Virus record (IMG/VR): IMGVR_UViG_3300034200_000178
Location: 1 to 25,866 of that record
DNA: 25,866 nucleotides
Source: a virus
Direction: 5' to 3' (one strand)
The stretch's first letter is position 1. Every line of letters starts with the position of its first letter. A program made the position numbers and the translations under genes. The notes below the pieces were generated by a model. It worked only from the letters and a program-made list of their open reading frames with translations. It had not been told where the DNA came from and did no database searches. Shown in pieces: positions 1,223-13,441 of this stretch.

Positions 1223-2658
1223 AGTTATTAGACCTTTTCAAGCGAACCCCGAAGAAACCCCGACGCCGCGCATTTGAAGCGGCCAACACTGGTCGATTGT
1301 TCAACGATTGGATGACGGCCACAAAGTCTGCCGACGCGGACATTCGATATACGCTTAAGGCAATGCGGGCGCGATCACGCGACCTTGCCCAAAACAACGA
1401 TTACGCACGACGTTACCTAGACTTGGTGGCAACCAACGTGGTCGGACCGCGTGGCATTACGCTACAGGTTCGCGCACGGGAGCCGAACGGCGCACTGGAT
1501 CAACTGGCAAACCAAATTTTGGAACGTGCCTTTTATCAATGGGGCAGACCAGGAATTTGCACAGTCGATGGCCGGTTGTCGTGGGTCGACGCGCAAAAAG
1601 TATTTATCGAATCGGTGGTGCGCGATGGCGAATGTTTCGTGTTGTTCGTGGAAGACGAAGCGAACCCGTTTCATTTCCGCTTGCAATTCATCGACGCCGA
1701 TTTGGTCGACCAAGACAAAAACGAAGTATTACCCGACGGAACCCAAATCCGCATGGGTGTCGAGGTTGACGCGACCGGGCGTCCGGTTGCGTATTACGTA
1801 AAGGTTCGCCATCCAGACGACTACCAATATTCGGGACAGTACGTCCGCGATATTCGTATCCCGGCTGATCGCATGATTCACGCATTTAGACAGGATCGCG
1901 TCGGACAGACACGCGGCACGCCGTGGACGGCAACCGCGATGACGCGGCTTAAAATGTTGGGCGGTTATGAAGAAGCCGAGTTAGTCGCCGCGAGAATCGG
2001 CGCGTCAAAAATGGGTTTCTTTATTTCGGAATCCGGCGACGAATTCCAAGCCGACGGCCCGAACGCCGACGGCACGCTAAATATGAACGCGCAACCCGGC
2101 GAGTTTATGCAACTTCCGGCGGGCGTAAACTTTAAGGAATACAACCCGCAGCATCCGTCGACCGCGTTTCGTGAATTCGAAAAGGCGATGTTGCGCGGTA
2201 TCGCGTCCGGCTTGGGCGTGTCTTACACGTCGCTTGCGAACGATTTGGAATCGGTTTCGTATTCGTCCATTCGCCAAGGGTTGTTAGAAGAACGCGACCA
2301 GTGGCGAACGGTCCAGCATTGGATGATCGAACACTTTTGCCAGCCGGTGTACTTGCGTTGGTTGCGTAACGCGCTGGACTTCGGCGCGGTATCGCTACCC
2401 GGCAACAAGTATTTTAAATTTAGCGAGACACAATGGGTTCCGCGTGGCTGGCAATGGGTCGACCCGCGCAATGAAGCCGAAGCGCAGATTGTCGCTATCA
2501 ACAACGGTTTGATGACGCGCACGCAAGCACTCGCCGAACGCGGGTTAGACATTGAAGACGTGTTGCGCGAAAGGGCATCCGAAGACGAACTAATTACATC
2601 GGTTGGCGTGACGTTGCCGGGTGGCACAGCGCCGCAGAATGTAGCACCGGGGGTTTAA
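1219..2658 (+). CDS. Portal protein, lambda gpB family
   Basis: 479 residues. Forms the dodecameric ring at one capsid vertex through which DNA is packaged and ejected, and on which the tail is mounted. The N-terminus has the lambda-portal signature: a basic start, a region with DIRYTLKAMRARSRDLAQNN, then YARRYLDLVATNVVGPRGI. Further on are the LQFIDADLVD and GYEEAELVAARIGASKMGFF segments and ASGLGVSYTSLANDLESVSYSSIRQGLLEER, all typical of the family. It is somewhat shorter than lambda gpB (533 residues), mostly for lack of a long C-terminal extension. It starts inside an ATGA overlap with the preceding gene. In lambda a protease gene follows directly; here six unrelated genes intervene. Confidence 0.96.
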   Translation: MKLLDLFKRTPKKPRRRAFEAANTGRLFNDWMTATKSADADIRYTLKAMRARSRDLAQNNDYARRYLDLVATNVVGPRGITLQVRAREPNGALDQLANQILERAFYQWGRPGICTVDGRLSWVDAQKVFIESVVRDGECFVLFVEDEANPFHFRLQFIDADLVDQDKNEVLPDGTQIRMGVEVDATGRPVAYYVKVRHPDDYQYSGQYVRDIRIPADRMIHAFRQDRVGQTRGTPWTATAMTRLKMLGGYEEAELVAARIGASKMGFFISESGDEFQADGPNADGTLNMNAQPGEFMQLPAGVNFKEYNPQHPSTAFREFEKAMLRGIASGLGVSYTSLANDLESVSYSSIRQGLLEERDQWRTVQHWMIEHFCQPVYLRWLRNALDFGAVSLPGNKYFKFSETQWVPRGWQWVDPRNEAEAQIVAINNGLMTRTQALAERGLDIEDVLRERASEDELITSVGVTLPGGTAPQNVAPGV

Positions 2659-2659
2659 C

Positions 2660-3004
2660 ATGGCCGGTACTCACGACATTGTTTGCGATCAAGGCGCGAC
2701 ATTTACGCGTATATTCACTTGGGAAGATTCCAGCGGCATTCCTATTGACTTAACTTTGTATACGGCGCGAATGCAAGTGCGGGCTACGATTGGCTCACTT
2801 TCCACCCTGCTGTCACTGACAACAGAAAACGGTGGTATATCACTGGGTGGCACAGCAGGAACTATTACCGTCACTGCAACGGCTATACAAACCGCAGCCG
2901 TCGCAGCCGGTTGTTATGTATACGACCTTGAAATGGTGACGGGTGCAGTTGTCACGCGTTTAGTGCAAGGATCATTCACAGTTGATGCCGAGGTGACGCG
3001 ATGA
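2660..3004 (+). CDS. Small Ig-like/BppU-N-like structural protein
   Basis: 114 residues, almost entirely predicted beta-strand: [20 protein letters not shown], then [13 protein letters not shown], and a closing ETTR-like edge ([11 protein letters not shown]). This pattern is widespread in small phage proteins encoded beside tail fibre genes and resembles the N-terminal beta-sandwich of BppU-type baseplate proteins. It starts one base after the portal stop, and its own stop overlaps the collagen fibre start (ATGA at 3001-3004). Coupled translation with the fibre suggests it is an adaptor or stoichiometric partner of the fibre. The assignment rests on pattern and context only. Confidence 0.72.
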
Positions 3005-5286
3005 GCGAAACCAAGTTGAATAACATTATTGTTTCCGAGACAACGCAAAACGTCATTGTGCGTGCGCCGGGTCCATCCGGTGCGGCTGGTCCTACTGGTC
3101 CAACCGGATCGACGGGCGCGACTGGTATAACGGGGCCAACCGGCGCGACCGGTGCATTTGGACCGACCGGACCGACCGGCGTGCAAGGCGCACAAGGCAT
3201 CGTTGGACCAACTGGCGCAACCGGCAACGTCGGGCCTACTGGTCCGACTGGCAGTCAAGGTATCCAAGGCGTCATTGGTCCGACAGGACCACAAGGCGTG
3301 CAAGGCATCCAAGGCGTGCAGGGTGTAGTTGGTCCGACTGGTCCACAGGGAATCCAAGGCGTGATTGGTCCGACCGGGCCAACTGGTAATACCGGCGCAA
3401 CTGGTCCACAAGGCCCAACAGGGCCAACCGGCGCACAAGGCGATGCGTCAACTGTGCCGGGGCCAACTGGTCCGCAAGGCATCCAAGGCGTGCAGGGCGA
3501 AACCGGAGCGCAGGGAATCGCGGGGCCAACTGGTCCGCAGGGCGCACAGGGTGATACCGGCCCTACGGGTCCGACTGGCGCAGCATCTAATGTTGCTGGT
3601 CCTACCGGACCTACCGGGGCGCAGGGCGTCCAAGGTGATATTGGACCGACCGGCCCGCAAGGGCCGCAGGGTATCCAAGGCGTACAAGGCAACGTTGGGC
3701 CTACTGGCGCAACTGGCGATATTGGCCCAACTGGTCCAACGGGTGCAGCGTCTAACGTAGCCGGTCCGACAGGCCCGACCGGTCCGCAAGGCGCAGACGG
3801 GCAATCGTCAAGTTTCTACGAATATCAAGCGGACACGAACGCGACAAGCGGCGTTCCTACTGCCGGTCATTTGTACTGGAACAATGCCACGCAGATTTCA
3901 GCGACCGCGATTGTTTTGAGCCATTTGGAACAAAACAATTTAGACATAGATATTTTCTTGGCGATTTTGAAGGATGGCGATGTTATCGTCCTCCAAGATC
4001 GTAATAATTCCGCGAACTTTCAAAAATGGGAAGTTAACGGAACGCCGACCGTCGTATCAAACAGTTATGTTTCGGTTCCCGTTACGCTAGTCACTTCAGG
4101 CGGCACAGGCACAACCAATTTTGCTAACAACCATCAACTGATTGTTGTTATTCAGTCTGTCGGTTTAGTCGGTCCGACCGGACCGCAAGGTGTAACGGGT
4201 CCAACTGGCCCGGTTTCTACCGTTCCCGGTCCGACTGGTCCAACCGGGCCGCAAGGTATCCAAGGTGACGTTGGCCCAACTGGACCGCAAGGATCGCAAG
4301 GTATCCAAGGCATACAAGGCGACGTTGGCCCGACTGGTCCGACAGGATCGCAAGGTATCCAAGGTGTGACCGGTCCGACTGGTCCACAGGGGATACAGGG
4401 TGTCGCTGGTCCAACAGGCCCGACAGGTATACAAGGTATACAGGGCGAAGTTGGACCGACAGGACCGCAGGGAATCCAAGGCGTCCAAGGTGTCCAAGGC
4501 GAAGTCGGCCCGACTGGTCCGACAGGTCCACAGGGTATACAGGGTGTCGCGGGGCCGACTGGACCGACTGGTAGCACTGGCGCAACTGGCGCTGTTGGAC
4601 CTACCGGACCAACTGGCGCGACAGGCGATACCGGACCAACTGGCCCGCAAGGTGTACAGGGTATACAGGGCGTGCAAGGTGCGACCGGTCCGACTGGCGC
4701 AACGCCGACAGTTGGCGGCAGCGATACACAAGTGCTGTTCAACGACGCTGGCGCTATCGGTGGCGATGCTGGTTTTACTTACAATAAAACCACGGACGCG
4801 GGAAGCATTGGCGCGTTAGCACTTTCGGCTGGCAATTTGTCGTTTACGACTACAGGCCAGCGCATCACGGGCGATTTCAGCAATGCGACGCCGGTTAACC
4901 GGCCAATGTTCCAAAGCAGTACGACAAACGGGTACACAGTTGTTCGTGCAATACCAAACGGAACCAGCCAATACGCTGAAATCGGGCTTGGTAATAACTC
5001 CGACGCGACTTCCGCTACTTCAACATTTTTTATGTCATTGAGCGCGACAGAGGCGCGAATTGCCTCTAGTCAAGCAAATACAGGGACATTGCTTCCGCTA
5101 ACTTTTCAAGTTGGAGGGAACGAAAGATTTCGTATTGACACATCAGGACAATTAGGCATCGGCGGCGCTAACTATGGTTCGTCCGGTCAAGTTTTGACTA
5201 GCAATGGCAGTGGTGCGGCCCCAAGTTGGCAGAGTGCCGGTGGCGGAGCGCCGGATTACATAACACAATCTTACGGTATCGTTTGA
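3001..5286 (+). CDS. Collagen-like fibre protein (Gly-Pro-Thr repeats)
   Basis: 761 residues. Residues about 1-20 form a short non-collagen N-terminus that probably attaches to the virion. Residues about 21-268 are Gly-X-Y repeats dominated by GPT, GPQ, GIQ and GVQ triplets with two AASNVA interruptions. Residues about 269-388 are a globular insert ([17 protein letters not shown] onward). Residues about 389-572 are a second collagen-like stretch. Residues about 573-761 are a C-terminal domain with fibre-like motifs ([11 protein letters not shown], then [16 protein letters not shown]). Phage collagen-like regions form trimeric triple helices without hydroxyproline, so this is probably a flexible homotrimeric fibre whose C-terminus binds a surface. 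It could be a side tail fibre or, given its place among head genes, a head fibre. GPT triplets are the O-glycosylated type in Bacillus BclA, and a glycosyltransferase gene lies downstream. Confidence 0.93.
3064..3804 (+). repeat. Tandem Gly-X-Y coding repeats, first collagen block
   Basis: Degenerate 9-base periodicity (GGN CCN ACN / GGN NNN CAA) encoding about 80 Gly-X-Y triplets. Glycine, proline and threonine codons vary freely at third positions. Two perfect 20-residue protein repeats centred on AASNVA (3559-3618 and 3724-3783) differ by synonymous changes in 14 of 20 codons. The repeat is therefore kept at protein level but not at DNA level. Confidence 0.9.
4165..4716 (+). repeat. Tandem Gly-X-Y coding repeats, second collagen block
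   Basis: About 60 further Gly-X-Y triplets, richer than the first block in GIQGVQG and GPTGPQG units, with the same 9-base periodicity and scattered third-position changes. The repeats give rise to several long but spurious ORFs on the opposite strand. Confidence 0.88.
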
Positions 5287-5297
5287 GGTAATCAAAA

Positions 5298-5681
5298 ATG
5301 GCAACAGCAGCACAATACGCAGCGACCCCGCGTGCAGCAGTCGGGCAAGTCGTAACAGCCAACACTAACCGTGATGGCACAGGCACGCTTGCGACAATCT
5401 TTACGGCTGGATCGTCTGGATCGCGTGTCGATGACATTAAAATTCAAGCGTTAGCGACAACGACAGCCGGTGTCGTGCGTTTGTTTTTGCACGACGGCAC
5501 TAACGCTCGACTATGGCAAGAAATCATGGTCACAGCGACTACTCCTAGCACATCCGTACAGGCATTTAATACGACGCTTTATAATCAAGCGTTAGTTTTG
5601 CCCAATGGTTGGTCGCTTCGCGCATCAACCAATAATGCCGAAGGTTTTAATATTTTGGTGACTCGCGCTGGAGACTTCTAA
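5298..5681 (+). CDS. Small beta-rich structural protein, fibre-associated
   Basis: 127 residues, no catalytic motif. Alternating strands: VGQVVTANTNRDGTGTLATIFTAG, then VDDIKIQALATTTAGVVRLFLHDG and a final EGFNILVTRAGDF, resembling a compact beta-sandwich found in small phage structural proteins. A Shine-Dalgarno-like GAGGT overlaps the end of the fibre gene, about 8 bases before the ATG. It lies between the collagen fibre and the glycine-rich adhesin, 2 bases from the latter. Likely a small decoration, cap or adaptor protein of the same fibre set. This role is inferred from position, and no family can be named with certainty. Confidence 0.72.
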   Translation: MATAAQYAATPRAAVGQVVTANTNRDGTGTLATIFTAGSSGSRVDDIKIQALATTTAGVVRLFLHDGTNARLWQEIMVTATTPSTSVQAFNTTLYNQALVLPNGWSLRASTNNAEGFNILVTRAGDF

Positions 5682-5683
5682 AA

Positions 5684-6778
5684 ATGAACCCCGGAACATA
5701 CGCAGGAGTTGGGAGCGGCGCATCGGGTGACACAATCACCGGATTTCAGCAATCGCACATCATCAAAACTTCGCAATCTATTACAGCGCCAGCCGGAACA
5801 AAACGCATTGAAGCATTGATTGCTGGCGGTGGCGGGTCCGGTGGTGGAAATACCGGCGGCGGCGGTTTTGGTGGGCTTGCTGTAATGGGCATTCCTGTTA
5901 CTGGTAGACCATACGATATTGTTGTTGGCGCTGGCGGCATCAATAGCGCACCGGGGAATCCGTCGCAAGTTTGGTCGGCTGGCATGATGTACGCCGAGGT
6001 TGGCGGCGGCGGCGGACATGGCGCCGGAGAGGCAAAAAATGGACGCTCTGGCGGCTCTGGTAGTGGTTCTGGTTCGCAAAACTTTGGTGGGCATGGTGGA
6101 GCGCCACCGTTTGGTGAGTTGCTCTGGTATTACGCGCCAACGTATTCAAATATAACTTGGCAACCAAGAAACACGGCATACCCGGAGACTGTTTACGGAA
6201 CAAATAATGCGGGATTTGGCGCGTATTACAACGGAAACAGCGGTACGTATGCCTTACAAGCGATACGCGGATCGCTAGGCGGCGGCGGTGGCGGCGGTTC
6301 TGCTGCTATTGGTCCCGCGTATGGCGGTGGCGGCGGTGGCGGCGAACCTACCTACGGAGGAACCGCAGGTAACTTGGGTGGCGGCGGCGGATCGATGAGT
6401 AATGGCGGCGTTTACGCTGGTGGATCATTGACAACGGTTAGCATTTGGGGAATTACAGGCAAGGCTAACGGAAACGGCGCTAACGGCGGTGCTGGCGGCG
6501 GCGGCGGTTTGTTAGGTGCTGGAGTAACTGGGTCATATACGCTTGGCGCATTGATTGGTTACACCTCCGACTGGGACCCGATATATTACGTAAATTATAC
6601 TGGCGGCGATGGTGGCGACGGTGGTGGTGGCGGCGGCGGTGTATACGTACCCGGATTTGTGCAAGTTTACTATGACGCACAGGGACAATATTGGGATCAA
6701 TATGTACAGCCAATAGGTCCAAATTTACGCAATGGAAATGGCGGAAACGGATTCGTCATTCTTCGATTTTTCTTTTGA
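5684..6778 (+). CDS. Glycine-rich tail fibre/adhesin protein
   Basis: 364 residues with many poly-glycine runs (GGGGSGGG, GGGGGGGS, GGGGGGGE, GGDGGDGGGGGGG), separated by variable loops rich in Tyr, Asn and Trp. The N-terminal motif ITAPAGTKRIEALIAGGGG and the C-terminal ending GGNGFVILRFFF are typical of the glycine-rich fold of phage adhesins, in which a sandwich of polyglycine II helices presents hypervariable loops (as in S16-type gp38). It is therefore a good candidate for host receptor recognition at the tip of the collagen-like fibre encoded just upstream. The start is ATG, 2 bases after the preceding stop. The fold assignment is inferred from composition and motifs. Confidence 0.82.
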   Translation: MNPGTYAGVGSGASGDTITGFQQSHIIKTSQSITAPAGTKRIEALIAGGGGSGGGNTGGGGFGGLAVMGIPVTGRPYDIVVGAGGINSAPGNPSQVWSAGMMYAEVGGGGGHGAGEAKNGRSGGSGSGSGSQNFGGHGGAPPFGELLWYYAPTYSNITWQPRNTAYPETVYGTNNAGFGAYYNGNSGTYALQAIRGSLGGGGGGGSAAIGPAYGGGGGGGEPTYGGTAGNLGGGGGSMSNGGVYAGGSLTTVSIWGITGKANGNGANGGAGGGGGLLGAGVTGSYTLGALIGYTSDWDPIYYVNYTGGDGGDGGGGGGGVYVPGFVQVYYDAQGQYWDQYVQPIGPNLRNGNGGNGFVILRFFF

Positions 6779-6786
6779 GGTGTGAC

Positions 6787-7194
6787 ATGGGACTATATGC
6801 CATCGTTAAAGGCGGAATTGTCGATGCTGTTGCTATAGCGGATTCGCCACTCGAAACCGACGGAATCTGGATTTGCATAGACGACATGGACCCGAAGCCG
6901 TTTCGCGGGTGGGCATACGAAGATGGCGTATTTTCTTATGAAGCGCCAAAAGTATATGTAAAGAAATCGACAATCCGCGCTGTTTTGTCGGACGTGTGGG
7001 AAAAAATTGAGAATGCCGCGTCATCGGACGACAATGTAAAGCAATGGCTCGATAAGATTGCATTGCAAGAATCGCAAGAATTTACTCAACAATACATAGA
7101 TGAATTGCTTTCACTTGTTAAAGGCAAACTAATTACATTGCAGCAATTCGAGAAATTGCGACCGAATAGTGGTTTTTATATCGAAATCGAATAG
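6787..7194 (+). CDS. Small fibre-associated protein of unknown function
   Basis: 135 residues. The ATG at 6787 is chosen because GAGGTG lies at 6777-6782, right at the end of the adhesin gene, and the protein from here (MGLYAIVKGGIVDAVAIAD) has a natural start; a longer in-frame version from 6691 would begin inside the adhesin gene. Residues 1-60 are beta-rich with a DGIWICIDDMDPKPFRGWAYEDGVFSYE pattern seen in short N-terminal domains of fibre-assembly or fibre-associated proteins. Residues about 65-125 are helical and charged (VKKSTIRAVLSDVWEKIE). This fits a chaperone or accessory for the adhesin, but no family is recognised with confidence. Confidence 0.75.
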   Translation: MGLYAIVKGGIVDAVAIADSPLETDGIWICIDDMDPKPFRGWAYEDGVFSYEAPKVYVKKSTIRAVLSDVWEKIENAASSDDNVKQWLDKIALQESQEFTQQYIDELLSLVKGKLITLQQFEKLRPNSGFYIEIE

Positions 7195-7201
7195 GTGAAA
7201 T

Positions 7202-8266
7202 TTGAAAATTGCCGTTTACGCTATCAGCAAGAACGAAGCGCATTTTGTTAAGCGATTTTGCGAATCTGCAAAAGACGCCGATTTAATACTGATAGCCGAC
7301 ACTGGCAGTACGGACGATACCGCGATTGTTGCCGCCGAATGTGGCGCAGTTGTCCAAGATATTTGTATCACGCCATGGCGATTCGATACGGCGAGAAATG
7401 CGGCACTGGCACTATTGCCGCGTGACATAGACGTTTGCATTTCGCTCGACCTTGACGAAGTATTGGAACCGGGCTGGCGCGAGGAAATCGAACGCGTCTG
7501 GACGGAAGGCACAACCCGGTTGCGGTATTACTTCGATTGGGGTTGCGGGATTAAATTTCTGTACGAAAAAATCCACGCACGGCATGGTTACTTGTGGCAT
7601 CACCCATGTCACGAATACCCCGTGCCGGATGGCCGTATAACGGAAGTGTGGGCGCAGACTGACAAACTTTTGGTTAGCCATCATCCCGACCCGACGAAAA
7701 GTCGTGGACAGTATTTAGATTTGTTGGCGGTATCGGTAAAGGAAGACCCGCACTGTCCGCGCAATGCGTTTTATTACGCACGCGAACTGACCTTTTATCA
7801 GAAGTGGCACGAAGCAATAGCCGCTTTGAATAAGTATCTTGCCATGCCGCAAGCGACGTGGCCGAACGAACGCTGTTACGCGTACCGCTTACTTGGCAAG
7901 TCGCACGCCGAGTTAAACGATTACGCGCAAGCCGAAGGGTACTTATTAAAAGCGTGTTCGGAAGCACCGAATACCCGCGAACCGTGGTGCGAATTAGCAA
8001 TGCTGTATTACCGGCAAAACCGGTGGGCGGAGTGCTACGCGGCGTCGATGCGGGCGCTGTCGATTAAGGATCGTGCGCTGGTTTATACGTGCGACCCGGC
8101 GGTATGGGGCCACTGGCCGAACGACCTAGCCGCCGTGTCCGCGTGGCATTTAGGACTGCAAGCCGTAGCAGTCGAGCAAGGCAAACTAGCCGTAGAAGCG
8201 TCGCCAGATAACGCAAGACTGGCCGAAAATCTCAAATGGTATTTGGGAGAAAAACATGGCGATTGA
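7202..8266 (+). CDS. Family 2 glycosyltransferase with C-terminal TPR-like repeats
   Basis: 354 residues. The N-terminal GT-A domain begins MKIAVYAISKNEAHFVKRF and carries DTGSTD (residues 33-38, nucleotide-sugar binding) and DLDEVL (83-88, the metal-binding DxD). The C-terminal half (about 185-340) is helical with TPR-like repeats (EAIAALNKYL, then LGKSHAELNDYAQAEGYLLKAC, then LAMLYYRQNRWAECYAASMRAL). This GT2-TPR architecture is found in enzymes that glycosylate peptides or proteins. The start is TTG, with AGGTGA at 7193-7198. The end overlaps the capsid ORF by 11 bases. It directly follows the fibre genes and precedes the capsid gene, so plausible substrates are a fibre or the capsid; host surface sugar is an alternative. 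The acceptor cannot be read from sequence. Confidence 0.88.
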   Translation: MKIAVYAISKNEAHFVKRFCESAKDADLILIADTGSTDDTAIVAAECGAVVQDICITPWRFDTARNAALALLPRDIDVCISLDLDEVLEPGWREEIERVWTEGTTRLRYYFDWGCGIKFLYEKIHARHGYLWHHPCHEYPVPDGRITEVWAQTDKLLVSHHPDPTKSRGQYLDLLAVSVKEDPHCPRNAFYYARELTFYQKWHEAIAALNKYLAMPQATWPNERCYAYRLLGKSHAELNDYAQAEGYLLKACSEAPNTREPWCELAMLYYRQNRWAECYAASMRALSIKDRALVYTCDPAVWGHWPNDLAAVSAWHLGLQAVAVEQGKLAVEASPDNARLAENLKWYLGEKHGD

Positions 8267-10643
8267 CCTACAACCGACGGCAACGATGGCCGAGGAAGCC
8301 GAACGCGGGTTAGCGTGGCGCGAGGAATTCGGACGGGGCGGAACCGCCGTCGGCGTTGCTAGGGCGCGTGATATAAAAAACCGTGTTACATTATCACCGG
8401 AAACTGTCCGACGGATGGTTTCGTATTTTGCAAGACATGAAGTCGACAAGCAGGGCGCAGGGTGGTCGCCGGGGGAAGATGGCTACCCGTCCGCCGGACG
8501 GATTGCATGGGCGCTATGGGGCGGCGATCCGGGCCGCGCATGGGCGAATGAAAAAGACCGGCTATTAGATGCCGAAGAAAGCGAGGGTCGGAATATGGAC
8601 CAACAAAGACACATTGTCGCCGTCGTCGAGGACGAAGCGACCGTAACCATTACGTTCGAAAAATCCGTAATGGACATGGACGAATCCGAGGAAGCCGAAG
8701 CCGCAATCGAAGCGGTCGAGGAAGCCGCCGAGGATGAAGCCGAGTTAGTCGGCGAACGTCCGAAAGATATGTTCGGTAACGAGCCGTGGGAGGAAGATTA
8801 CGCAGGACCGGCCAAACGAAAAGGCCCGGAGAAACGCGTATTCCGCAGCGCGGTATTTGAACGCGAGTCGGTGCAGGACGCCGACCGCCGGGTGAGTTTA
8901 GCATTCTCCAGCGAAGCCGCAGTCGAGCGCGGTTGGGGTATGGAAGTGCTGGACCATTCGCCCGGTGCGATAGATTCATCGTTTATTGGTAGTGGCCGTG
9001 CGCCGCTACTGGTCGACCATGATCCCGCCGACCAAATCGGCGTGGTCGAAATGGTTTCCTTGGGTTCGGATCGTGTTGCACGCGCCGTCGTTCGCTTTGG
9101 GAAAAGCCAACGAGCCGAGGAAATTTGGCAAGACGTGAAAGACGGGATACGTGGGAACGTGTCTGTTGGATACGTCATTAACGAGATGGTTTCTGACGGG
9201 AAGCGTGATGGCCGGGAGGTTTACCGCGCAACCAGTTGGTCGCCACTCGAAATTAGTATCGTGTCCATTCCGGCAGATACTAGCGTCGGCGTAGGCCGAA
9301 GCATGGCGGAAACGCCGAAACCGGAAGTTATTTCACATTCACCGAAGGTACAAATTATGAGCGAAATTAACAGCGAAGCCGTCCGCGAAGACGGCATGAA
9401 GGCCGAGCGCAGCCGCGTTTCGGCGATTATGGACCTTGCTTCACGTCACAACCAGCGCGACCTTGGCGAGTCTGCCGTGCGCGAGGGTGCGACTATTGAG
9501 CAATTCCGTGGTGCGTTGCTCGACAAGGTGGCGTCCAAGCCGCTTAACGTCGACGTGGAAGTTGGCCTGTCGGACCGCGAGGCGCGTTCGTTCTCATTCG
9601 TGAAGGCCATTCGCGCCCTTTCGAACCCGCAGGATCGCCGCGCACAGGACGATGCCCGCTTCGAGTTTGAAGTCTCCGAAGCAGCCGCCAAGAAGGAAGG
9701 CCGAGACAGCCGTGGTATTACCGTTCCGGTGGACGTGCTGAAGCGTGACCTGACCACCTCGATTGCGTCCGGTACGTCGAAGGCTGGCAACCTTGTTGCC
9801 ACGGACCTTTTGGCCGGTTCGTTTATCGACGTGTTGCGTAACAAGATGGTCCTTAACACGTTGGGCGCGCAATTCCTGACGGGCTTGCAGGGCAACGTGG
9901 CGATCCCGCGTAAGACTGCCGGTGCGACTTCGTACTGGGTCGGTGAGAACAGCGCCCCGACCGAGGGCAACATGACCTTTGATCAGGTTACGTTGTCGCC
10001 GAAGACGCTTGCCGCGTATGTCGACTACAGCCGTCGCTTGATGTTGCAGTCGTCAATGGATGTCGAGACGATGGTGCGTAACGACCTTGCCGCGTCAATC
10101 GCCGTGGCTATGGACGCTGCTGCTATCTCCGGTTCGGGTTCTAACCGTCCGACCGGCATTCTCAACACGTCCGGCATTGGTTCGGTGACGCTTGGCACGA
10201 ACGGCGGCGCGCCGACTTGGGCCATGGTCACGGGCCTTGTTAAGGAAGTCGAAATCGACAACGCGTTGACGGGTGCGGCGGCGTTCCTGACCAACGGACA
10301 GGTTAAGGCGAAGTTGGCGTCGACTCCGAAGCAGACTTCGGGCGTCGAGGGTAACTTCCTGTTGGGACCGGACGTGAACAGCATCTACGGTTATCCGTTG
10401 GTGGTGTCGCAGCAGATTCCGGGCAACTTGTCGAAGGGTTCGGCGTCCGGCACGCTGTCTGCCATGATCTTCGGCGTGTGGAGCGACTTGCTGGTTGGTC
10501 AGTGGTCGGGCATCGACCTTATGGCCGACCCGTACACTGGCAGCAACGCCGGTACGGTCCGCATCGTGGCGTTCCACGACTGCGACTTCGCCGTGCGCCA
10601 TGTCGAGTCGTTCGCCGAGTGTAACGAGATTGTGACCGCCTAA
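8256..10643 (+). CDS. Fused prohead protease and HK97-type major capsid protein
   Basis: 795 residues in three parts. Residues 1-113 are an N-terminal module with the recognisable segment SPGEDGYPSAGRIAWALWGG, found in some phage head proteins. Residues about 195-350 are an HK97-type (S78) prohead protease: LLVDHDP holds the catalytic His (255), GNVSVGY the catalytic Ser (303), and WSPLEISIVSIPAD the conserved C-terminal strand. Residues 368-795 are an HK97-fold major capsid protein with an N-terminal helical delta/scaffold region (about 368-490), then VLRNKMVLNTLGA, SYWVGENSAPTEG and the closing HDCDFAVRHVESF. The protease would mature the capsid shell by removing the delta region. Start ATG with GGGAG at 8245-8249. 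Lys codons are 10 AAA/3 AAG before residue 368 and 16 AAG/0 AAA after it. Confidence 0.95.
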   Translation: MAIDLQPTATMAEEAERGLAWREEFGRGGTAVGVARARDIKNRVTLSPETVRRMVSYFARHEVDKQGAGWSPGEDGYPSAGRIAWALWGGDPGRAWANEKDRLLDAEESEGRNMDQQRHIVAVVEDEATVTITFEKSVMDMDESEEAEAAIEAVEEAAEDEAELVGERPKDMFGNEPWEEDYAGPAKRKGPEKRVFRSAVFERESVQDADRRVSLAFSSEAAVERGWGMEVLDHSPGAIDSSFIGSGRAPLLVDHDPADQIGVVEMVSLGSDRVARAVVRFGKSQRAEEIWQDVKDGIRGNVSVGYVINEMVSDGKRDGREVYRATSWSPLEISIVSIPADTSVGVGRSMAETPKPEVISHSPKVQIMSEINSEAVREDGMKAERSRVSAIMDLASRHNQRDLGESAVREGATIEQFRGALLDKVASKPLNVDVEVGLSDREARSFSFVKAIRALSNPQDRRAQDDARFEFEVSEAAAKKEGRDSRGITVPVDVLKRDLTTSIASGTSKAGNLVATDLLAGSFIDVLRNKMVLNTLGAQFLTGLQGNVAIPRKTAGATSYWVGENSAPTEGNMTFDQVTLSPKTLAAYVDYSRRLMLQSSMDVETMVRNDLAASIAVAMDAAAISGSGSNRPTGILNTSGIGSVTLGTNGGAPTWAMVTGLVKEVEIDNALTGAAAFLTNGQVKAKLASTPKQTSGVEGNFLLGPDVNSIYGYPLVVSQQIPGNLSKGSASGTLSAMIFGVWSDLLVGQWSGIDLMADPYTGSNAGTVRIVAFHDCDFAVRHVESFAECNEIVTA
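9344..9359 (+). promoter_or_regulatory. Candidate internal start for free major capsid protein
   Basis: GAAGGT at 9344-9349 lies 7 bases before an in-frame ATG at 9357 (residue 368, MSEINSEAVR). Initiation here would give a 428-residue capsid precursor without the protease, close to HK97 gp5 plus a scaffold region. The codon-usage change falls at the same point. The Shine-Dalgarno match is moderate, so this is a candidate rather than a certainty. Confidence 0.5.
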
Positions 10644-10656
10644 TAACGGCGCAGTC

Positions 10657-11184
10657 TTGATTGATCTAGCATCAATCCGGGGCCGTCATTCGGGACAACG
10701 TGCTGTTGTCTTGGGTGGCGGCCCCGCCTTGTTATCGGACTTGCGCCGGGTCCGGCCACGCGTCCAGCGGGACGGCGTGTGGATTGGCGTTAACCAGCAT
10801 TCGTTATTGCTGGCGTTAGATTACGTGGTGTATCAGGACCGGGAACTATTCCCAATCCTGACCGGCCACGGGTTCCCGTTGGTCACGCACCATAAGGACC
10901 AAGCGGATATATGGTCGGGCATTGTTCCCGACTTTGGCTTTTCCGGCGGCACTGCCGTCTGGATTGCCGAGTATTTAGGGTGCGAAGAAATTATCGTGTG
11001 CGGTTGCGATAACTACATGGAGAATCGCCGTTACTGGCATTCCAAGGTTGGCGACCGAGGGTTGGAATTAGGCATTTCGGCGATTGGTGCGTGGCAGCAC
11101 GTCCGCGACCGAATGCAAGACCCGACAAGGGTAAAAGTTGTATCAGGGACACTAATTAAGGTATTTTCCGCGTATGAAGGTTGA
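10657..11184 (+). CDS. DUF115/MptE-like (Maf-type) Rossmann-fold protein
   Basis: 175 residues. The N-terminal GQRAVVLGGGPALLSDL is a glycine-rich nucleotide-binding loop like that of the DUF115/MptE/Maf family, and FSGGTAVWIAEYLGCEEIIVCGCDNY matches that family's second conserved block. Relatives include 6-hydroxymethylpterin diphosphokinase MptE and the Maf proteins that put nonulosonic acids on flagellin. It is a short single-domain phage version. The start is TTG at 10657, 13 bases after the capsid stop, without a clear Shine-Dalgarno; no ATG exists upstream of the conserved loop, so re-initiation after capsid translation is plausible. Function could be sugar transfer or small-molecule chemistry. 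Family membership is inferred from the two motifs. Confidence 0.7.
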   Translation: MIDLASIRGRHSGQRAVVLGGGPALLSDLRRVRPRVQRDGVWIGVNQHSLLLALDYVVYQDRELFPILTGHGFPLVTHHKDQADIWSGIVPDFGFSGGTAVWIAEYLGCEEIIVCGCDNYMENRRYWHSKVGDRGLELGISAIGAWQHVRDRMQDPTRVKVVSGTLIKVFSAYEG

Positions 11185-13084: not shown

Positions 13085-13441
13085 ATGGATTGGAAAGATA
13101 AAGCCAAATCGCAATTCGCTGAACGGCGCAAGCCGGAAACGCTAGTTGCGATCCCGGTTCCCGAATGGGACACCACGGTTTATTACTGGCCGGATATGAC
13201 GCTGGCGGAAAGACGCGAAATCTTTTTGCTAGCGAAACAGGACGGCGATTCGACCGTGTTGGACCTAGAAGCAATGGCGGTAACGCTGTTGGTTCGGGCG
13301 CGGGATAAGAACGGCAAGCGAATTTTCGTCAATGCGGAACGGCGCGAGTTGCTCAACGAATACGACCCGGAAGTGATGGCTACGATTGTCGCAGCCATGA
13401 ACAACGGAACCGTATCGGTGGAGGACGCCGAAAAAAAATAA
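13085..13441 (+). CDS. Tail assembly chaperone, G-type (frame 0 product)
   Basis: 118 residues. Starts MDWKDKAKSQFAERRKPETLVAIPVPEWDTTVYYWPDMTLAERREIF and ends EDAEKK. Small chaperones of this kind bind the tape measure protein and are encoded between the tube and tape measure genes in long-tailed phages. The last codons GAA AAA AAA TAA form a slippery run, so a fraction of ribosomes should continue in the -1 frame to give the longer product (13085-13602). RBS TTGAGGG ends about 6 bases before the ATG. Confidence 0.85.
   Translation: MDWKDKAKSQFAERRKPETLVAIPVPEWDTTVYYWPDMTLAERREIFLLAKQDGDSTVLDLEAMAVTLLVRARDKNGKRIFVNAERRELLNEYDPEVMATIVAAMNNGTVSVEDAEKK

Follow-up and report, generated by a model that had tools for sequence, protein, structure and literature searches.

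Organization of the fused protease and capsid locus

The stretch analyzed here, hereafter the window, is the complete 25,866-nucleotide viral DNA of IMG/VR record IMGVR_UViG_3300034200_000178. A single frame of 795 codons, which the initial annotation had described and which is indeed open throughout, joins a prohead protease to a predicted scaffold and a capsid protein, and the features of this locus are as follows:

8256-10643, plus strand: protease-scaffold-capsid fusion ORF, 795 aa and 85.5 kDa in one frame
8256-8585, plus strand: N-terminal accessory domain, residues 1-110 (PHROG 2859, function unknown)
8583-8597, plus strand: candidate second internal start, comprising GAGGGT at 8583-8588 and the ATG at 8595 (codon 114)
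8958-9317, plus strand: S78 prohead protease domain, residues 235-354 (Pfam Peptidase_S78)
9300-9356, plus strand: hypervariable linker, codons 349-367, site of the putative internal ribosome binding site
9344-9349, plus strand: GAAGGT, Shine-Dalgarno-like site of the proposed internal start; most close homologues have AAGGAG instead
9357-9359, plus strand: internal ATG (codon 368), at which a free capsid precursor is proposed to begin
9357-9749, plus strand: predicted scaffold (delta) domain, approximately codons 368-498, mostly helical in the AF2 model
9390, plus strand: maximum-likelihood codon-usage change-point, codon 379, from a two-segment model
9753-10640, plus strand: predicted mature HK97-fold capsid domain, from approximately codon 500 (boundary approximate; Pfam match at 511-787)

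The first 11 bases of the fusion ORF are shared with the upstream glycosyltransferase ORF, and the Shine-Dalgarno (SD) sequence of its own start is GGGAG at 8245-8249 (-7.3 kcal/mol). Residues 199-791 matched positions 14-623 of the 626 in the PHROG 617 profile (E = 7e-161), a match that covers both the protease and the capsid, and residues 511-787 matched the Pfam family Phage_capsid (E = 2e-45); the match to NCBIfam NF045541 was partial (residues 208-444; 156 bits, under the curated cut-off of 525 bits). Peptidase_S78 scored 33.2 bits against a gathering cut-off of 21, and H255, S303, and E332, which from family knowledge we take to be the catalytic residues of a protease whose activity here is predicted only, were invariant in 20 diverse members. 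The domain profile searches of the fusion ORF matched the Peptidase_S78 and capsid families only and found no ClpP-type protease domain.

Several neighboring features were also recorded. The portal is separated from the fusion gene by ∼5.6 kb (2660-8266) containing a collagen-like tail fiber gene (3001-5286) and a glycosyltransferase gene with TPR repeats (7202-8266), unlike the isolated relatives that were viewed, in which the portal lies directly upstream of the fusion gene. Just 3′ of the capsid stop codon is a 20-pair stem-loop (10679-10725), a possible terminator or processing site that overlaps the ORF at 10657-11184. Farther downstream, the tail assembly chaperone ORF (13085-13441) ends in GAAAAAAAATAA, from which the -1 frame is open for ∼50 residues and beyond, past 13584; this is a candidate lambda G/GT-type frameshift.

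Codon usage and the proposed internal start at codon 368

Codon usage changes abruptly within the fusion ORF. The lysine counts given in the initial annotation were exact, with 10 AAA and 3 AAG before codon 368 and 0 AAA and 16 AAG from that codon on (chi-square p = 8e-5), and the codons for Leu, Ala, Gly, Val, Gln, Arg, and Asp shift as well, most clearly those for leucine (CTA or TTA in 9 of 13 cases before codon 368 and in 0 of 36 after it). When a two-segment codon-usage model was compared with 500 within-amino-acid (synonymous) codon shuffles, the log-likelihood gain reached 78.5 at codon 379 and 76.8 at codon 368, against a shuffle maximum of 36.7 (z = 14.6). The switch had originally been placed exactly at residue 368; this holds within the resolution of the method, codon 368 being nearly as likely, but the optimum itself lies 11 codons later. 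Under the same test, the genes for the portal, fibers, glycosyltransferase, tape measure, Dit, and exonuclease gave z values of -0.4 to 2.5. The capsid half was the only codon outlier in the window, its next nearest genes being those for the major tail protein and head closure, whereas the protease half had ordinary background usage. Codon adaptation of the capsid half alone is what would be expected if ribosomes translated that half much more frequently than the protease half.

The proposed start, an ATG at 9357-9359 with GAAGGT 7 bases upstream, is present as first described. As an SD sequence this site is moderate to weak, with an anti-SD duplex of -4.0 kcal/mol that is equaled or bettered at five other in-frame ATGs; however, the codon-368 ATG has the least structured RNA among the in-frame ATGs of the ORF (minimum free energy -1.0, against an ORF mean of -11.8), placing it in the top 0.4% of positions. 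Compared with synonymous resamplings, the SD of the window alone was not better than chance (p = 0.10), whereas tests combined by Fisher's method gave p = 3e-4 for 15 close and p = 0.02 for 19 distant homologues, which are not independent of one another; significance was reached only in combination, because the coded residues themselves favor G-rich codons. Within the window's own clade, synonymous variation around codon 368 was low, with 24 of 777 windows equally low.

The product predicted from Met368 has 428 residues and a mass of 45.2 kDa. An AF2 model of this precursor, made from an alignment with 56 diverse members, reached a pLDDT of 79, whereas the model of the full-length protein, made from a shallow alignment, reached only 36 and was unusable. 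In the precursor model, residues 6-114 (precursor numbering) are helical and residues 131-154 flexible, and the HK97 fold follows; the best structure match was 8GTA (E = 2e-20), with HK97 (1OHG) at 1e-12. As modeled, the internal-start product would resemble the entire HK97 gp5 precursor, with a predicted helical delta domain followed by an HK97 fold. Since the mature HK97 chain aligned from codon 503 of the fusion, cleavage near codon 500 is likely, and the processing site expected earlier near residue 490 is probably somewhat farther downstream.

Conservation of the putative internal start signals

In the close set (80 codon-aligned IMG/VR loci, 67-100% identity), the protease-capsid linker varied in both length and sequence, yet an ATG and an SD-like site were present at its end in all. 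Outside the window's clade the SD was mostly AAGGAG, with duplexes down to -9.2 that were often the best among in-frame ATGs, whereas the window's own clade keeps the weaker GAAGGT. The initial annotation had held that an identical codon pattern in both halves of homologues would speak against internal initiation; instead, 14 of 15 close representatives (<88% mutual nucleotide identity) switched, with the break 4-40 codons past the equivalent ATG.

The wider family was assembled from isolated phages, loci from bacterial genomes, and IMG/VR, giving 177 analyzable members with ∼35-100% identity. All 177 of these diverse loci encode the fusion in a single frame and none is a split-gene relative; judged from these sequences, the protease-capsid fusion is the rule in the PHROG 617 family rather than a peculiarity of the window phage. 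An ATG was present inside the linker (24-87 codons) of 174 of the 177 fused ORFs, and one of the three exceptions had a GTG with an SD of -8.8. The SD was -5 or stronger at 80% of linker ATGs, compared with 18% of 2386 other in-frame ATGs. Over positions -30 to +15 around the linker ATG the RNA was less folded, at -4 to -5 kcal/mol compared with about -9 (p = 4e-24), and S, T, and P were enriched at the second residue. Random 44-codon windows contained an ATG in 66% of cases and an ATG plus SD in 16.7%; the presence of a Met/ATG alone was thus rejected as evidence of an internal start. A significant codon break was detected in 69 of 170 members, and 74% of these breaks were within 25 codons of the linker ATG, compared with 11% in shuffles. 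The remaining 101 had no significant switch, and the idea that a strong switch is common to all homologues was rejected, as it is absent in several distant phages.

Among isolated phages, the linker ATG was kept in those of Roseobacter, Synechococcus, Klebsiella, Salmonella, Rhodobacter, Pseudomonas, Acinetobacter, Burkholderia, Xanthomonas, Vibrio, Halomonas, and Dinoroseobacter. Most of these ATGs were accompanied by an SD, whereas those of cyanophage members were not; despite this, the codon break in two Synechococcus phages fell 1 and 9 codons before the linker ATG. Two far more distant Helicobacter prophage fusions (∼24% identity) have AAGGAGAAATGATG immediately after the protease domain. 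A Helicobacter bizzozeronii prophage fusion (locus L101, 1767-3596) is interrupted in frame by a stop codon close to where its capsid domain ends; it is annotated as two ORFs and is probably a degraded copy. The family counts describe related sequences and not independent trials, and the argument for an internal start is that four different signals coincide at a single site.

Similar signals were found at codon 114. This codon is located between the accessory domain and the protease part, immediately ahead of the RHI/V motif with which the protease part begins. The SD here was the strongest in the window ORF (-8.3), the surrounding mRNA was unfolded (mean -2.1, compared with about -8 to -12 nearby), and the ATG was shared by 74 of 74 close homologues, nearly all of which retained the SD even where the encoded amino acids had changed. 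Distant members that carry the accessory domain had an M...RHI/V start in 24 of 39 cases, and 79% of these had an SD of -5 or stronger, although the start signal was weaker than in close homologues. Synonymous resampling of this SD detected no selection (p = 0.57), a null that reflects the preference of the coded residues for G-rich codons. The accessory domain is fused in most relatives, unlike in phage CRP-823 (locus L083), where it is a separate ORF (1486-2202) in another frame that overlaps the protease-capsid ORF (2162-4414). A three-tier nested gene, in which starts at codons 1, 114, and 368 would give, in that order, a fusion of accessory domain, protease, and capsid, a 73-kDa fusion of protease and capsid only, and the free capsid precursor, is a tentative reading to which we give less than an even chance; if true, a single cistron would determine how much is made of each of three head components.

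Interpretation and comparison with known systems

A single frame and a codon switch were observed, as were, across the family, a conserved start codon with an SD and unfolded mRNA at that switch. On this sequence evidence, the locus is very probably a nested two-product gene, in which a free capsid precursor would be made by internal initiation beside a rarer protease-capsid fusion. The internal initiation at residue 368 that the initial annotation suggested is thus supported by the start codon, SD, unfolded mRNA, and position, all conserved over ∼35-100% identity, as well as by the gp5-like size and architecture of the product. Initiation at 8256 would give the 85.5-kDa protease-scaffold-capsid fusion, and independent initiation at the ATG at 9357 would give a 45-kDa scaffold-capsid precursor alone, the counterpart of HK97 gp5. 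The fusion, as a minority of subunits, would co-assemble through its capsid domain and thereby bring the S78 protease into the procapsid, where the protease would cleave near codon 500 and release both the protease half of the fusion and the delta domains; the remaining shell would consist of ∼30-kDa subunits. We infer the making of both products, their ratio, their co-assembly, and their cleavage.

Three other explanations were weighed. All subunits might be made as the full fusion, with the protease half clipped off each and the codon switch reflecting selection for accuracy or folding of the capsid domain. The single open frame in 177 of 177 loci fits such a polyprotein, and there is a published precedent in the tripartite capsid gene of Gifsy-2 (Effantin, 2010, as cited in PMC3121763). 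However, a polyprotein gives no reason to expect that an ATG, an SD, and unfolded mRNA should be conserved at the switch, and its two halves should be equally translated, yet codon adaptation is confined to the capsid half. It would also place ∼415 proteases in each procapsid, several times the ∼60 that accompany the 415 capsid proteins of HK97 prohead I (PMC12749128). The virion of Dinoroseobacter phage R4C, whose capsid gene is a family member, has 415 capsid chains, modeled from residue 362 of 629. We consider the polyprotein very unlikely, and still less credence is given to a mosaic gene, that is, a recent join of two genes with different codon histories in which the switch marks the join and the ATG and SD are relics. 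The switch does fall at a domain boundary, and the ATG resembles the start of a once-separate capsid gene, but all of the diverse loci carry the fusion, which must therefore be old, and the ATG and SD persist within an otherwise hypervariable linker. Furthermore, the protease half has the background codon usage of the phage while that of the capsid half leans toward the major tail protein, and the switch co-occurs with the ATG and SD across relatives.

The third explanation, a separate shorter transcript (from an internal promoter or a processed mRNA) translated from codon 368, is a variant that still uses the internal start. It would also produce an excess of capsid, and phage late mRNAs are often processed; nevertheless, a search limited to promoters of the sigma-70-like type found none in 7900-11000, compared with 1.1 expected in shuffles, and we regard this variant as improbable, if less so than the other two.

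Internal initiation within the fusion, if true, would explain in general terms how phages whose protease and capsid are fused keep from packing a protease with every shell subunit, and the protein annotated as the major capsid protein across the PHROG 617 family would not be the main primary product. It would also show that a codon-usage switch within one ORF can expose a hidden cistron. Family phages already in culture include R4C, Rhodobacter phage RcCronus, and Klebsiella phage KA2-1, for which the predicted internal starts are at codons 189, 190, and 212, respectively.

Protease-capsid fusions themselves are already known (PMC6536676; PMC8601537) and, like the window ORF, are represented in PHROG 617 (“major head protein”) and NF045541 (“prohead protease/major capsid protein fusion protein”); both describe one protein without an internal start, and the window differs by the start proposed here. 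The major capsid protein of R4C (PDB 8GTA; PMC10276861) is a family fusion ORF with an internal ATG at codon 189 (SD -9.5) and a mature chain of residues 362-629, and the word “protease” is absent from the main text of the structure paper (PMC10276861). No report of internal initiation in a protease-capsid fusion was found in the open-access literature, which is weak evidence of absence because most subscription papers lay outside the search. HK97 also has an S78-type protease upstream, and its gp5 has 385 residues compared with 428 for the predicted internal product, but gp4 (protease) and gp5 (scaffold-capsid) are separate genes (PMC12749128), whereas the window protease is in frame with no intervening stop codon. 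In Gifsy-2, as in the window, protease, scaffold, and capsid are in one gene, although the Gifsy-2 protease is ClpP-type and that of the window is S78. The full-length product of this Salmonella phage is reportedly processed, with the protease half clipped from all subunits. In lambda C/Nu3, and also in Mu I/Z, a protease gene has an in-frame internal start that gives a second, abundant head-assembly protein. The two elements, the fusion and internal initiation within a phage head gene, are thus each known, and their combination appears to be new, as far as the reports found indicate. Lambda C/Nu3 shares with the window an in-frame start with a conserved ribosome binding site (predicted here) inside a longer ORF; its nested product is a scaffold, with the capsid protein encoded elsewhere, whereas in the window the nested product would be the scaffold-capsid precursor itself.
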